A stretch of DNA of 64,000 nt from a virus, in IMG/VR virus record IMGVR_UViG_3300011113_000640, positions 248,001 to 312,000 of that record; one strand, written 5' to 3'. Shown here in pieces: positions 28,491 to 32,439 of this stretch (positions within the stretch are counted from its first letter, which is position 1; the number at the start of each line of letters is the position of its first letter). The position numbers and the translations under genes were made by a program. Under the pieces are notes generated by a model. That model did not search any database. It saw only the letters and a list, made by a program, of their open reading frames with translations, and was not told where the DNA came from.

Positions 28491-29231
28491 TTAATTAAAA
28501 GTTTTTGTCAAGCCAACTACCACGGCATTCTTGTAGAGCTTTTGACCGCTCACAGTGTTTGCAGTTTCAAAAGTTCTTGTTGTGCCAGAGTTGGTGAAAT
28601 ACTTTACACTGACGTCAAAGTCTTTGGGTAGACTGTAAACAAAACCAGCATTGATGTCATTGTAATCGTAGGCTGTGCTGTTGGCCACATTGGTACGACC
28701 ATAGTGTGCTACAACAGCCAGATTCTTGATCACAGGAACTGGTAACTTGCCATCTGCTTGCACGTAGGTTGTGCCTTGAGCATTGGCTGTACCGAAATAG
28801 CCATCTCCCAAGGTTCTGCTATACTTGGCAGAAATGATGTCTTTGTAACCTAGGCCGACATAGCCTTCATAGGTGTCAAAGTTTGAACCAGTTTTTGCTG
28901 AAGTGGTGGCACGTGGATAGAAATAGTTGTAGCTACCGATGTCGATCGAGATGCCCTTGAAGATTTCTTTCTTGTAACCAGCGTAGAGATCACTCTCTAC
29001 ACCTGCACCATTGGTGTAGACTTGGCTAGAAACACTGCTGTTCCAGTTACCAATGTACAAGCCACTCTTGTGTGCATAGTCGATGCCGCCCTGAACTGCA
29101 GGAGCATTTTGGGTTTGGCTAACACCGCGGAAACGGTAGTCGCTGGTCAAACCTAAATTGCCGGTGAGTTGAGCTTGAGCCGAGGCAACAAAGCCAGCGG
29201 ACAAGGCCAATGCTAATAATAATTTTTTCAT
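28491..29231 (-). CDS. TorF-family outer-membrane porin-like protein
   Basis: 246 aa. The signal peptide MKKLLLALALSAGFVASAQA is followed by LTGNLGLTSDYRFRGVSQTQ and then NAPAVQGGIDYAHKSGLYIG, typical of the TorF family of putative porins in Proteobacteria. Alternating beta strands run to the terminal VVGLTKTFN, with the C-terminal Phe/Asn end of outer-membrane barrels. Length fits the family (220-260 aa). AAAAGGAAA precedes the ATG and a terminator follows. Probably acquired from a betaproteobacterial host. In the phage it may alter host permeability or mask a receptor. Confidence 0.85.
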   Translation of the reverse strand: MKKLLLALALSAGFVASAQAQLTGNLGLTSDYRFRGVSQTQNAPAVQGGIDYAHKSGLYIGNWNSSVSSQVYTNGAGVESDLYAGYKKEIFKGISIDIGSYNYFYPRATTSAKTGSNFDTYEGYVGLGYKDIISAKYSRTLGDGYFGTANAQGTTYVQADGKLPVPVIKNLAVVAHYGRTNVANSTAYDYNDINAGFVYSLPKDFDVSVKYFTNSGTTRTFETANTVSGQKLYKNAVVVGLTKTFN

Positions 29232-29977: not shown

Positions 29978-30003
29978 AAAAAAAACCCGCCGAAGCGGGT
30001 TTT
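29978..30003 (-). terminator. Terminator of the tmRNA gene
   Basis: The stem ACCCGC-TTCG-GCGGGT is followed by eight T on the minus strand. The stable TTCG tetraloop is typical. It ends the tmRNA precursor. Confidence 0.85.
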
Positions 30004-30004
30004 G

Positions 30005-30287
30005 ACATTTTTGGTAACAAGGCATGTCTGCCCCGGAGATCATGCCGCTAAGGCAAAGACCTCGTCGTTAGCTGCGTTTGCAGTTATCATTTTGCTTCTA
30101 CGACCAGGCTTTCCCAGTCCTAACGGGTTTCGCATTCCCGTGTTGCCGTCCGCATTGGCTCACCATGTCGATCCTGATTCATCCCCACCCAAGCATACTG
30201 GACAATACACTTGGGTGGAGATGCTGGGATTTGCACCCAGGTCCATAGTGCCTTCACTTGGAAGGGATTACAACAATTCGAAAAACG
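30005..30287 (-). ncRNA. ssrA: Two-piece (circularly permuted) tmRNA
   Basis: In transcription order, an acceptor piece (about 30287-30214) comes first, then a spacer, then the coding piece (30186 to about 30005). The acceptor piece has a T arm CTGGG-TGCAAAT-CCCAG and ends CATCTCC-A-CC; the coding piece starts GGGGATGAATCAGGATCGACA, like a tmRNA 5' end. GGGGATG pairs with CATCTCC over seven pairs, with G3-T70, the alanine identity pair. The tag frame (30040-30081) reads ANAANDEVFALAA followed by TGA. The spacer folds as ACCCAAG/CTTGGGT and is presumably cut out. Ends are approximate. CCA is only partly encoded (CCC). Confidence 0.9.
30187..30216 (-). other. Excised hairpin between tmRNA pieces
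   Basis: ACCCAAG (30216-30210) and CTTGGGT (30193-30187) form a 7-bp stem around a 16-base loop. It joins the acceptor 3' end to the coding-piece 5' end in the precursor, where RNase P and 3' processing enzymes would be expected to cut. Confidence 0.75.
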
Positions 30288-30545
30288 TTAACTCAACTTA
30301 CGTGCCATTTGAGGCGCTGGCGTAAACGAATTCACTATAGCCAAATAACCGTCGGCTGACGCTTCAGTGCTGAATAATCTTATAAAATTGTCTGAGTAAG
30401 TGATTCCGTCTGAATTTGTAGTCGTCTGAGTATTAACTGACATGGTAACCGCTGCCACGGCTGGATCAGTGAGATATGCACTTAATTGATTCGTTTCTGC
30501 TTCAGTGCGAGCACGTCCGTAAATAACTTCTGTAAAATATAGCAT
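30288..30545 (-). CDS. Small phage protein
   Basis: 85 aa, starting MLYFTEVIYGRARTEAETNQ. It contains LSAYLTDPAVAAVTMSVNTQ and ends FTPAPQMARKLS. Soluble, with no signal peptide. Its stop lies directly at the start of the tmRNA precursor, and a late-type box at 30570-30577 precedes it, so the tmRNA may be cotranscribed with it. Function unknown. Confidence 0.6.
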   Translation of the reverse strand: MLYFTEVIYGRARTEAETNQLSAYLTDPAVAAVTMSVNTQTTTNSDGITYSDNFIRLFSTEASADGYLAIVNSFTPAPQMARKLS

Positions 30546-30629: not shown

Positions 30630-30722
30630 CTACTTGCCAAACAAATGAGCCACAATGCCCATGCCCACAAATACTGTCATGGCCGCAACGGCCGCCCAGG
30701 GGATGTTTTTTAATATGTTCAT
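30630..30722 (-). CDS. Tiny membrane protein (30 aa)
   Basis: 30 aa, MNILKNIPWAAVAAM then a hydrophobic run ending HLFGK, giving one transmembrane segment. The ATG overlaps the TGA of the 27-aa gene as ATGA, so the two are made together. Function unknown; lysis-related or envelope-directed micropeptides are possibilities. Confidence 0.55.
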   Translation of the reverse strand: MNILKNIPWAAVAAMTVFVGMGIVAHLFGK

Positions 30723-30802
30723 TGCTCGTCCTGATGTTCGTTGATCCACATGATACCATAACAAACTACCACAGCCAACAAGGCAAAAAATATCAACCAC
30801 AT
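30719..30802 (-). CDS. Tiny membrane protein (27 aa)
   Basis: 27 aa: the hydrophobic segment MWLIFFALLAVVVCYGIMW followed by a polar tail INEHQDEQ. The ATG lies five bases after a consensus TATAAT, so the transcript may be leaderless. Coupled to the 30-aa membrane peptide gene. Function unknown. Confidence 0.55.
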   Translation of the reverse strand: MWLIFFALLAVVVCYGIMWINEHQDEQ

Positions 30803-30804
30803 GA

Positions 30805-30996
30805 TTAATTATAGCCTTTTATGTGATTGTTGTCAATCGGGGGATTTCCTCGGGCCATGACATTTTCTAACTGCCGGGCACGATCACGTTCGGGCGGCAA
30901 CGGACCACAACCCAGTCTTGCCCACTCGTCTTCGGAGTAGTAATAGCGTTCCACGGGCGGTTTCTTTTGCTGTTCCACGGTCATCGTATTTACCAT
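30805..30996 (-). CDS. Small hypothetical protein
   Basis: 63 aa from ATG 30996, or 59 aa from the ATG at 30984. It has EQQKKPPVERYYYSEDEWAR and LPPERDRARQLENVM; charged and proline-rich. It begins five bases after the 3' end of the upstream tRNA and is probably cotranscribed with it. Function unknown. Confidence 0.5.
   Translation of the reverse strand: MVNTMTVEQQKKPPVERYYYSEDEWARLGCGPLPPERDRARQLENVMARGNPPIDNNHIKGYN
30808..30836 (-). promoter_or_regulatory. Sigma70-type promoter for the tiny membrane pair
   Basis: Minus strand TTGACA (30831-30836), 17 bases, TATAAT (30808-30813), then five bases to the ATG. It lies over the last codons of the 63-aa gene. Confidence 0.8.
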
Positions 30997-31000
30997 GTTT

Positions 31001-31075
31001 TGGTAGGCCTTGAAAGAATTGAACTTTCACTCCATCGATTATGAGTCGATTGCTTTACCATTAAGCTAAAGGCCC
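31001..31075 (-). tRNA. tRNA with CAT anticodon (Met or Ile2)
   Basis: 75 bases with CCA. The acceptor stem is GGGCCTT/AAGGCCT (G1-T72), the D arm AGCTTAATGGTAAAGC, the anticodon arm ATCGA-CTCATAA-TCGAT, and the T arm GAAAG-TTCAATT-CTTTC. There is no initiator mismatch, so it is elongator Met or, if C34 becomes lysidine, Ile for ATA codons. Confidence 0.9.
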
Positions 31076-31093: not shown

Positions 31094-32050
31094 TCATGGC
31101 CCATAGTTGTCAAGCCTGTCACGCAAACCAAGGTAATTTTTGAAATAAAGAAGATCCTTTTGTTGAGCGGTAATGGGCAAAGATTCTACTGTGTTTACAT
31201 CATGCAAGCTGTTGGCACCGCCCATGTCTCGGTCATGTGGCCAGTCTGTGGCAAACAACATGCGATTCCATCCCAATAGTTCGGCATTTTCAATAAAACC
31301 CGGCATTTCTGGTTCGGTGGTAAACCAAAAATTTCTGCGGAGATATAGCATGGGATCTGCAAATCCCAACTCCAGCATGCGGTCCTGCAGTTCATAGATC
31401 CAGTTGGTATCACGTTCGGCAATTACAATTTTGAGATCGGGGTAGCGATCCAGGGTTCCACCAATGATAAGGCTGGCTATGGTTCTTTTCCAAAAATGAT
31501 GTGCTGGCCAGATTTCTTTAAGTAGTTGTAGTTCTTTGGCCCAGATGCTGGTGTCAGATTCAATAACGTCATTGATTTCGGTATGGTGCAGATACACCGG
31601 CATTTTTGTCTTGGCTATTTTCGCAAACAACACATCGTATTCTGGCATGAATCCCCAGGCTGGTGTTTCGCTCAAAAACACAGCCAAAAAATTCTGTTCA
31701 GCACGCAGTTCTAATTCTGCCAGGCTAGCCGTTAGATCCTGCAGGGCCAACCAAATAGTGGCACTGAAACCAGAGTTGTGGCTGACAATTTGATGCAGGT
31801 GTTCATTGTAGATCTGCATGACTTTGCGACCCACGTGTTTGGGTAATCTATAGTTGATGTTCAAACTGATGCCCATGAAGTTCAGCAACTGGTGATCAAT
31901 TTTGAGTGCAGAGAATTCTTTCAGGCGATCATCGATATTGGTATAGCTGTGTCGTTTTTTTTCACAATACTGCTGATACCATTCCTGTATGTCAGGATGA
32001 TCAAACACCGCAGGTGGAGGAGTATAGTGTGCATCAGCGTCAATGATCAT
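31094..32050 (-). CDS. Amidohydrolase-2 family metal-dependent hydrolase or decarboxylase
   Basis: 318 aa from the ATG at 32050 (MIIDADAHYTPP); a TTG at 32071 overlapping the previous stop is an alternative. TIM-barrel metal motifs are visible: DADAH at the N-terminus, MPVYLHHTEIN, KIVIAERDTNW and LFATDWPHDRD. The family includes aminocarboxymuconate-semialdehyde and hydroxybenzoate decarboxylases (300-340 aa). It is unusual in a phage. The C-terminus RLDNYGP resembles that of the gene just upstream (FLDNYGP). Substrate unknown. Confidence 0.75.
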   Translation of the reverse strand: MIIDADAHYTPPPAVFDHPDIQEWYQQYCEKKRHSYTNIDDRLKEFSALKIDHQLLNFMGISLNINYRLPKHVGRKVMQIYNEHLHQIVSHNSGFSATIWLALQDLTASLAELELRAEQNFLAVFLSETPAWGFMPEYDVLFAKIAKTKMPVYLHHTEINDVIESDTSIWAKELQLLKEIWPAHHFWKRTIASLIIGGTLDRYPDLKIVIAERDTNWIYELQDRMLELGFADPMLYLRRNFWFTTEPEMPGFIENAELLGWNRMLFATDWPHDRDMGGANSLHDVNTVESLPITAQQKDLLYFKNYLGLRDRLDNYGP

Positions 32051-32067
32051 ATGATATTTATTGTTGT

Positions 32068-32439
32068 TCAAGGCCCGTAGTTGTCAAGAAATTGTTCCAA
32101 ATTACCGTAGAGATTGACCATGACCGCTTCTCGGCTTCCAAAAAACACTATCTTTTTGGGTATGCCTTTGGTTGCCGAAATATAGTAAGGCATCTGCATT
32201 TTTCTATCCAATTTGAGCATGAGACGCTTGTTGAACGTCAAGGGATCTGTGATGGCATACTCGTAGTGCTCAAGATCCAACCGCCGAGACAATACATCAT
32301 ATCCAATGCCGGTCAAGCGCATGCCACCGGTACGTCTGATGTTGAACCACCAACTTGGCAAAGCTGTGTCCACAGGCACACGATCACTTTCGGGCAAGAG
32401 CTCGATGAGTTGTTGAGTCAGTAGATGTTTGTCACGCAC
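32068..32439 (-). CDS. Conserved T4-like phage protein
   Basis: 123 aa from GTG 32439, just after the upstream TGA; no ATG fits. It has RDKHLLTQQLIELLPESDRV, SWWFNIRRTGGMRLTGIGYD and LTFNKRLMLKLDRKMQMPYY, and I recall similar proteins in T4-like cyanophages. It may bind or modify a phage replication component, but there is no catalytic motif. It ends FLDNYGP. Confidence 0.6.
   Translation of the reverse strand: MRDKHLLTQQLIELLPESDRVPVDTALPSWWFNIRRTGGMRLTGIGYDVLSRRLDLEHYEYAITDPLTFNKRLMLKLDRKMQMPYYISATKGIPKKIVFFGSREAVMVNLYGNLEQFLDNYGP

Follow-up and report, generated by a model that had tools for sequence, protein, structure and literature searches.

The RNA that frees stuck ribosomes, tmRNA, also occurs in a circularly permuted, two-piece form, and the intervening segment that separates the halves of the permuted gene is usually taken as short waste. 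In phages, two-piece tmRNA genes have been described for Melnitz and as a set of 53, mostly aquatic, in INPHARED (PMC9004378), and huge phages have been reported to carry tmRNA together with SmpB (PMC7162821). A tmRNA database now includes 79 bacteriophage sequences, and the accompanying 2025 survey describes a tRNA-Ala inside one intervening sequence, which it calls unique, and a repeat in another; the accessible part of that survey makes no mention of protein genes in intervening sequences (PMC11915505). Our scans of viral contigs returned at least 120 matches to permuted tmRNA genes. Given these matches and the published cases (PMC9004378), a permuted tmRNA in a phage can no longer count as a surprise, as a sequence-only reading of the DNA studied here had presented it. 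The gene described below is a sound one, but phage permuted tmRNAs as such are already published, and the lead that goes beyond it is found in its relatives, whose intervening segments carry genes.

The window, that is, the whole stretch of 64,000 nucleotides that was analyzed, corresponds to positions 248001-312000 in a viral record of 320,541 bp and holds the only permuted tmRNA gene of that record. The virus is a T4-like jumbo phage, whose terminase and portal protein share ∼49 to 53% identity with their counterparts in PA5oct-like Pseudomonas phages, Atu_ph07, and Phosso. The sequence-only reading had placed a permuted tmRNA at 30005-30287 and proposed a covariance search including permuted forms as a check. 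Both permuted families match the minus strand above their gathering scores in cmscan: RF01850 (beta_tmRNA) at 30305-29980 with 129.3 bits (E 4.2e-39; cut-off 84), its promoter part remaining unaligned, and RF04321 (tmRNA_permuted) at 30275-30040 with 117.6 bits (E 2.6e-22; cut-off 47). ARAGORN likewise calls a permuted tmRNA, with the tag ANAANDEVFALAA. These matches confirm a real permuted tmRNA gene, far above chance, at the predicted place, with the correction that it lies on the minus strand and reaches beyond 30005 to 29982. Its covariance score, the order of its halves, its acceptor stem with G3-U70 and T-arm, and its tag frame are all those of the beta type.

The anatomy of the gene bears out most of what had been read from the letters. 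The tRNA 3′ half does precede the tag half, with a hairpin spacer between them. The acceptor piece (30214..30275, minus strand; RF04321 alignment) comprises a helix strand, the T-arm, the 3′ acceptor strand, and ACC; it is followed by an intervening segment of only 27 nt (30187..30213, minus strand), which is predicted to fold into a hairpin coaxial with the acceptor stem and contains no ORF. The coding piece (30004..30186, minus strand; RF01850 and RF04321) begins at G1 (30186) with the acceptor strand GGGGAUG and the D-loop region UCGAC and also holds the tag frame and a downstream pairing region. As had been proposed, the acceptor stem closes across the two pieces (GGGGAUG/CAUCUCC) with the G3-U70 alanine identity pair, and in the predicted fold it continues through the spacer to form a single 20-bp hairpin. 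This pair is present in 245 of the 247 permuted tmRNAs found with a finder that allowed for its absence, and pairs 4 to 6 of the acceptor stem, where the finder required pairing, are realized by several pair types across the phage copies. The tag frame (30040..30081, minus strand; ARAGORN and translation) encodes ANAANDEVFALAA followed by TGA. It ends in ANDEVFALAA as claimed, but the full tag is longer, with 13 residues made up of ANA and ANDEVFALAA; the ANA insertion is shared with three viral copies (L269, L292, and L351), and the frame is intact up to its FALAA ending. The terminator expected after the tag is an intrinsic one with a 9-bp stem and a T run (29982..30003, minus strand). The gene encodes ACCC, so that the last A of CCA is absent, and 27 of 78 permuted genes from bacteria likewise read ACCC or ACCT. 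The T-loop sequence UGCAAAU does not conform to UUCRANN; we considered it as a special feature and rejected this, as permuted tmRNAs of phages and bacteria commonly deviate from that consensus.

Compared to the described phage systems, the window gene resembles that of Melnitz (MZ577097) in being a phage-borne permuted tmRNA, for which no host copy is needed as an explanation. However, the Melnitz tmRNA is of the alpha type, with the tag ANDNYVPVDYALAA and a downstream glutamine riboswitch, and its intervening segment carries an ORF with SD and ATG, whereas the window copy is of the beta type and its segment is without one. The huge phages of Al-Shayeb et al. (PMC7162821) share with the window phage the combination of a jumbo phage and a tmRNA, but that work is silent on the permuted form and reports SmpB, which we did not detect here. 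The likeness to bacterial beta-type permuted tmRNAs (RF01850; Cupriavidus, Rhodocyclaceae, Azonexaceae, and Zoogloeaceae) is greater in detail and extends to the gene order, the short hairpin segment, the ACCC end, the ANDExFALAA tag, and the terminator; the window copy differs from them by the ANA insertion in its tag, its location in a phage genome, and a strongly supported branch that separates it from the bacterial genes.

This likeness bears on the origin of the gene, which the sequence-only reading had suggested to be captured from a host possessing this form. A recent capture, for instance, as passenger DNA after imprecise excision at an ssrA attachment site, would agree with the beta-type model fitting best and with the short segment and ACCC end that the window copy shares with bacterial copies. 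The phylogeny argues otherwise: among the 112 tmRNAs of the tree, 84 viral copies are set apart from 27 bacterial ones (from Rhodocyclaceae, Azonexaceae, Zoogloeaceae, and Cupriavidus, among the matches listed in one scan) by a single branch supported at 100/100, and the window copy stands beside a viral copy, L292 (95/99). Moreover, the surrounding gene order is common to several phages. Since the phage clade lies well apart from the bacterial copies and synteny is conserved, recent capture from a host is unlikely, and we give it only a slim chance. Such a capture may still hold for a distant ancestor, and an ancient transfer could have gone in either direction. In blastn searches, the window tmRNA gave only short, chance or terminator-like matches against isolate phages and one short match against plasmids.

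While controls were recovered, no SmpB was detected in the window record or in 11 other phage records, which may be incomplete, so that an SmpB gene could lie outside them; the window tmRNA thus most likely relies on the SmpB of the host. The same finding could be taken to favor a role as decoy or modulator, in which the RNA would not be a full tmRNA but would compete with host tmRNA for SmpB or alter tagging, and some phage tmRNAs do have strongly altered long tags, some of them ending in LAV. A model for such a role is the tag-less form of phage DS6A, which reportedly inhibits tmRNA. The window copy, in contrast, retains a complete tag frame, ending in ANDExFALAA, along with every acceptor feature, which makes a decoy quite improbable. 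Nor does the gene look like a decayed, nonfunctional relic: its score of 117.6 bits is below the 161 to 174 bits seen in six bacterial genomes, but all elements are intact, including the terminator, and sister copies that have diverged in sequence retain the tag and the stems, so that we regard decay as next to negligible. Very probably, then, the window gene encodes a circularly permuted tmRNA of the beta type and of phage lineage that serves ordinary trans-translation with host SmpB. By analogy with the permuted tmRNA family, its transcript would be cleaved into two RNAs: the single transcript would fold by pairing the acceptor strands of its halves, RNase P would cut ahead of G1 (30186) and a tRNA 3′-processing nuclease behind the acceptor piece (30214), and the missing A would come from the CCA enzyme. 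The two-piece molecule would then be charged with alanine via G3-U70, bind host SmpB, enter stalled ribosomes, and add ANAANDEVFALAA to nascent proteins as a ClpXP-type degron, with continued ribosome recycling during infection as the most likely benefit for the phage. The window copy shows that a two-piece tmRNA belongs to the inherited equipment of a jumbo-phage lineage with PA5oct and Atu_ph07 among its relatives, and, as no SmpB is detectable beside it, the use of host ribosome rescue by a phage becomes testable.

Several of the genes around the tmRNA recur in other phages. The window contains all seven of the tRNAs that were detected in the record, and one of them, a tRNA-Met(CAT) upstream of the tmRNA (31001..31075, minus strand), has the same position in L292 and L717. 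On the same strand, an 85-aa ORF without a family match (30288..30545) lies directly upstream of the tmRNA, and ORF63 (30805..30996) is a free-standing homologue of an ORF nested in the tmRNA segment of L351 (76% identity over 25 aa). Two putative hydrophobic micro-ORFs, mechanical ORFs of 30 aa (MNILKNIPWAAVAAMTVFVGMGIVAHLFGK; 30630..30722, minus strand) and 27 aa (MWLIFFALLAVVVCYGIMWINEHQDEQ; 30719..30802, minus strand), overlap each other. Free-standing hydrophobic micro-ORFs of 22 to 30 aa are thus found upstream of the tmRNA both in the window (30630-30802, minus strand) and at L717:7271, and they resemble membrane micropeptides nested in the tmRNAs of L324, L343, and L357. A consensus scan identified a sigma-70-like TTGACA-17-TATAAT sequence (12/12 positions; 30808..30836, minus strand), a candidate promoter for a transcript of the small ORFs and the tmRNA; an immediate upstream promoter, as in L717, is not evident at the window tmRNA. 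Differing combinations of homologues of ORF63, Gcw_chp, orf194, and a 5′-3′ exonuclease accompany the permuted tmRNAs of L292, L360, L069, L074, L507, and L078, and no relatives of ORF63 were found among isolate phages. The Gcw_chp (PF09694) gene for an outer-membrane-like protein (28491-29231, minus strand) adjoins the tmRNA and is kept there in several phages. The closest contig is L717, with 87% identity over 3.6 kb, the tmRNA tag ANASNDEVFALAA, and an intervening segment of ∼63 nt; it was also the one viral contig in which our scan found the PF04909 amidohydrolase gene that the window phage carries at 31094-32071 on the minus strand (95% identity).

The relatives of the window gene differ from bacterial permuted genes in the length and content of the intervening segment, which spans 15 to 50 nt in the bacterial genes examined and mostly 54 to 249 nt in phage beta-type genes. 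In many of the long phage segments, AAGGA(G) immediately follows the encoded CCA and belongs to an ORF that starts 10 to 16 nt into the segment (loci L324, L343, L357, L331, L281, L307, L344, L351, L292, L475, L494, L611, and L648, among others); an SD-start ORF filling the segment is absent from the 27-nt segment of the window copy. Seventeen loci, the majority of them nested, were compared with permuted tmRNA models of the beta and alpha types, and every one matched above the gathering score. Among the matches listed, a segment-filling SD ORF occurs in 15 of 63 long segments found by the tag pattern alone, with no selection on the segment, whereas 300 shuffles with both ends kept gave 2.4 on average and never more than 7. 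In a set selected for AAGGA after CCA, the figure is 38 of 49, with 3.1 expected; both counts refer to distinct segments and not to independent lineages. The pN/pS values of the nested ORFs, in 11 clusters, are 0.03 to 0.48 in nine and 0.60 and 0.74 in the other two, a sign of purifying selection on the proteins. Some nested products have recognizable relatives: that of L331 matches PGDYG (PF14083, barely above the curated cut-off) and PHROG 419 (E 1e-11), that of L303 and L371, whose ORF is without a clear start codon, matches Oxidored-like (PF09791, E 3e-12), and a 62-aa family nested in L475, L494, L611, and L648 is 59% identical to Melnitz gp85, the gene of which lies just upstream of the Melnitz tmRNA. 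Two nested families have no relatives among isolate phages. Taken together, these data make it highly likely that real, selected protein genes sit in the intervening segments of many phage permuted tmRNA genes, and the open-licence papers searched yielded no description of ORFs inside such segments. The tRNA-Ala-bearing segment of the 2025 survey is comparable in that an excised segment holds a gene, but it is a single tRNA case, whereas the phage relatives have protein ORFs in many copies and the window copy has none (PMC11915505). The homologies of gp85 and ORF63 show that the same genes occur both beside and inside tmRNA genes and, with a nested-gene homologue upstream of the window tmRNA, genes appear to enter and leave the tmRNA gene.

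At all 67 nested loci considered, pairing is predicted between the SD and the segment's 3′ end, within a stem that extends the acceptor helix. Among 71 nested loci, a few of them counted twice, the stop ends one base before G1, the RNase P site, in 40 and 12 bases before it in 10, and the frame runs past G1 in 21. Of 118 long segments, 105 have a conserved TGAT ahead of G1, with or without an ORF; this conservation is independent of ORFs, so a stop within TGAT is weak evidence by itself, and the nested ORFs may exploit a preexisting motif. If these genes are processed like known permuted tmRNAs, cuts at both ends of the segment would excise a minimal mRNA reaching from SD to stop and, where the frame passes G1, a nonstop mRNA of the kind that tmRNA rescues. 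We speculate that such minimal or nonstop mRNAs are released and that the latter set up an arfA-like feedback loop on tmRNA. If the nested genes are true, a presumed processing waste is a coding unit, and small-protein expression is physically coupled to the maturing of the RNA that rescues ribosomes. A possible test system is the cultured phage Melnitz: from L716:1805 onward, inside its tmRNA segment, it has an unannotated candidate ORF (MFKWLSKTRLVVITRDYFRERNRK...) with GGAG and ATG that runs past G1 and would encode a peptide (MFKWLSKTRLVV...); the ORF is identical in four isolates, and no diverged homologue was found.

Among phage permuted tmRNAs, long tags of ∼26 to 33 residues occur in L078, L069, L074, L696/L466, L507, L490, L532, and L558, and some of them are conserved and end in SLAV or ALAV instead of ALAA, for example, AKASTGEVTVSGKSVKFSARTAKASLAV. 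N-terminally extended beta-type tags are found in L336, L274, and L320 (ANVSTFKFWQSPVSVAANDEAFALAA).
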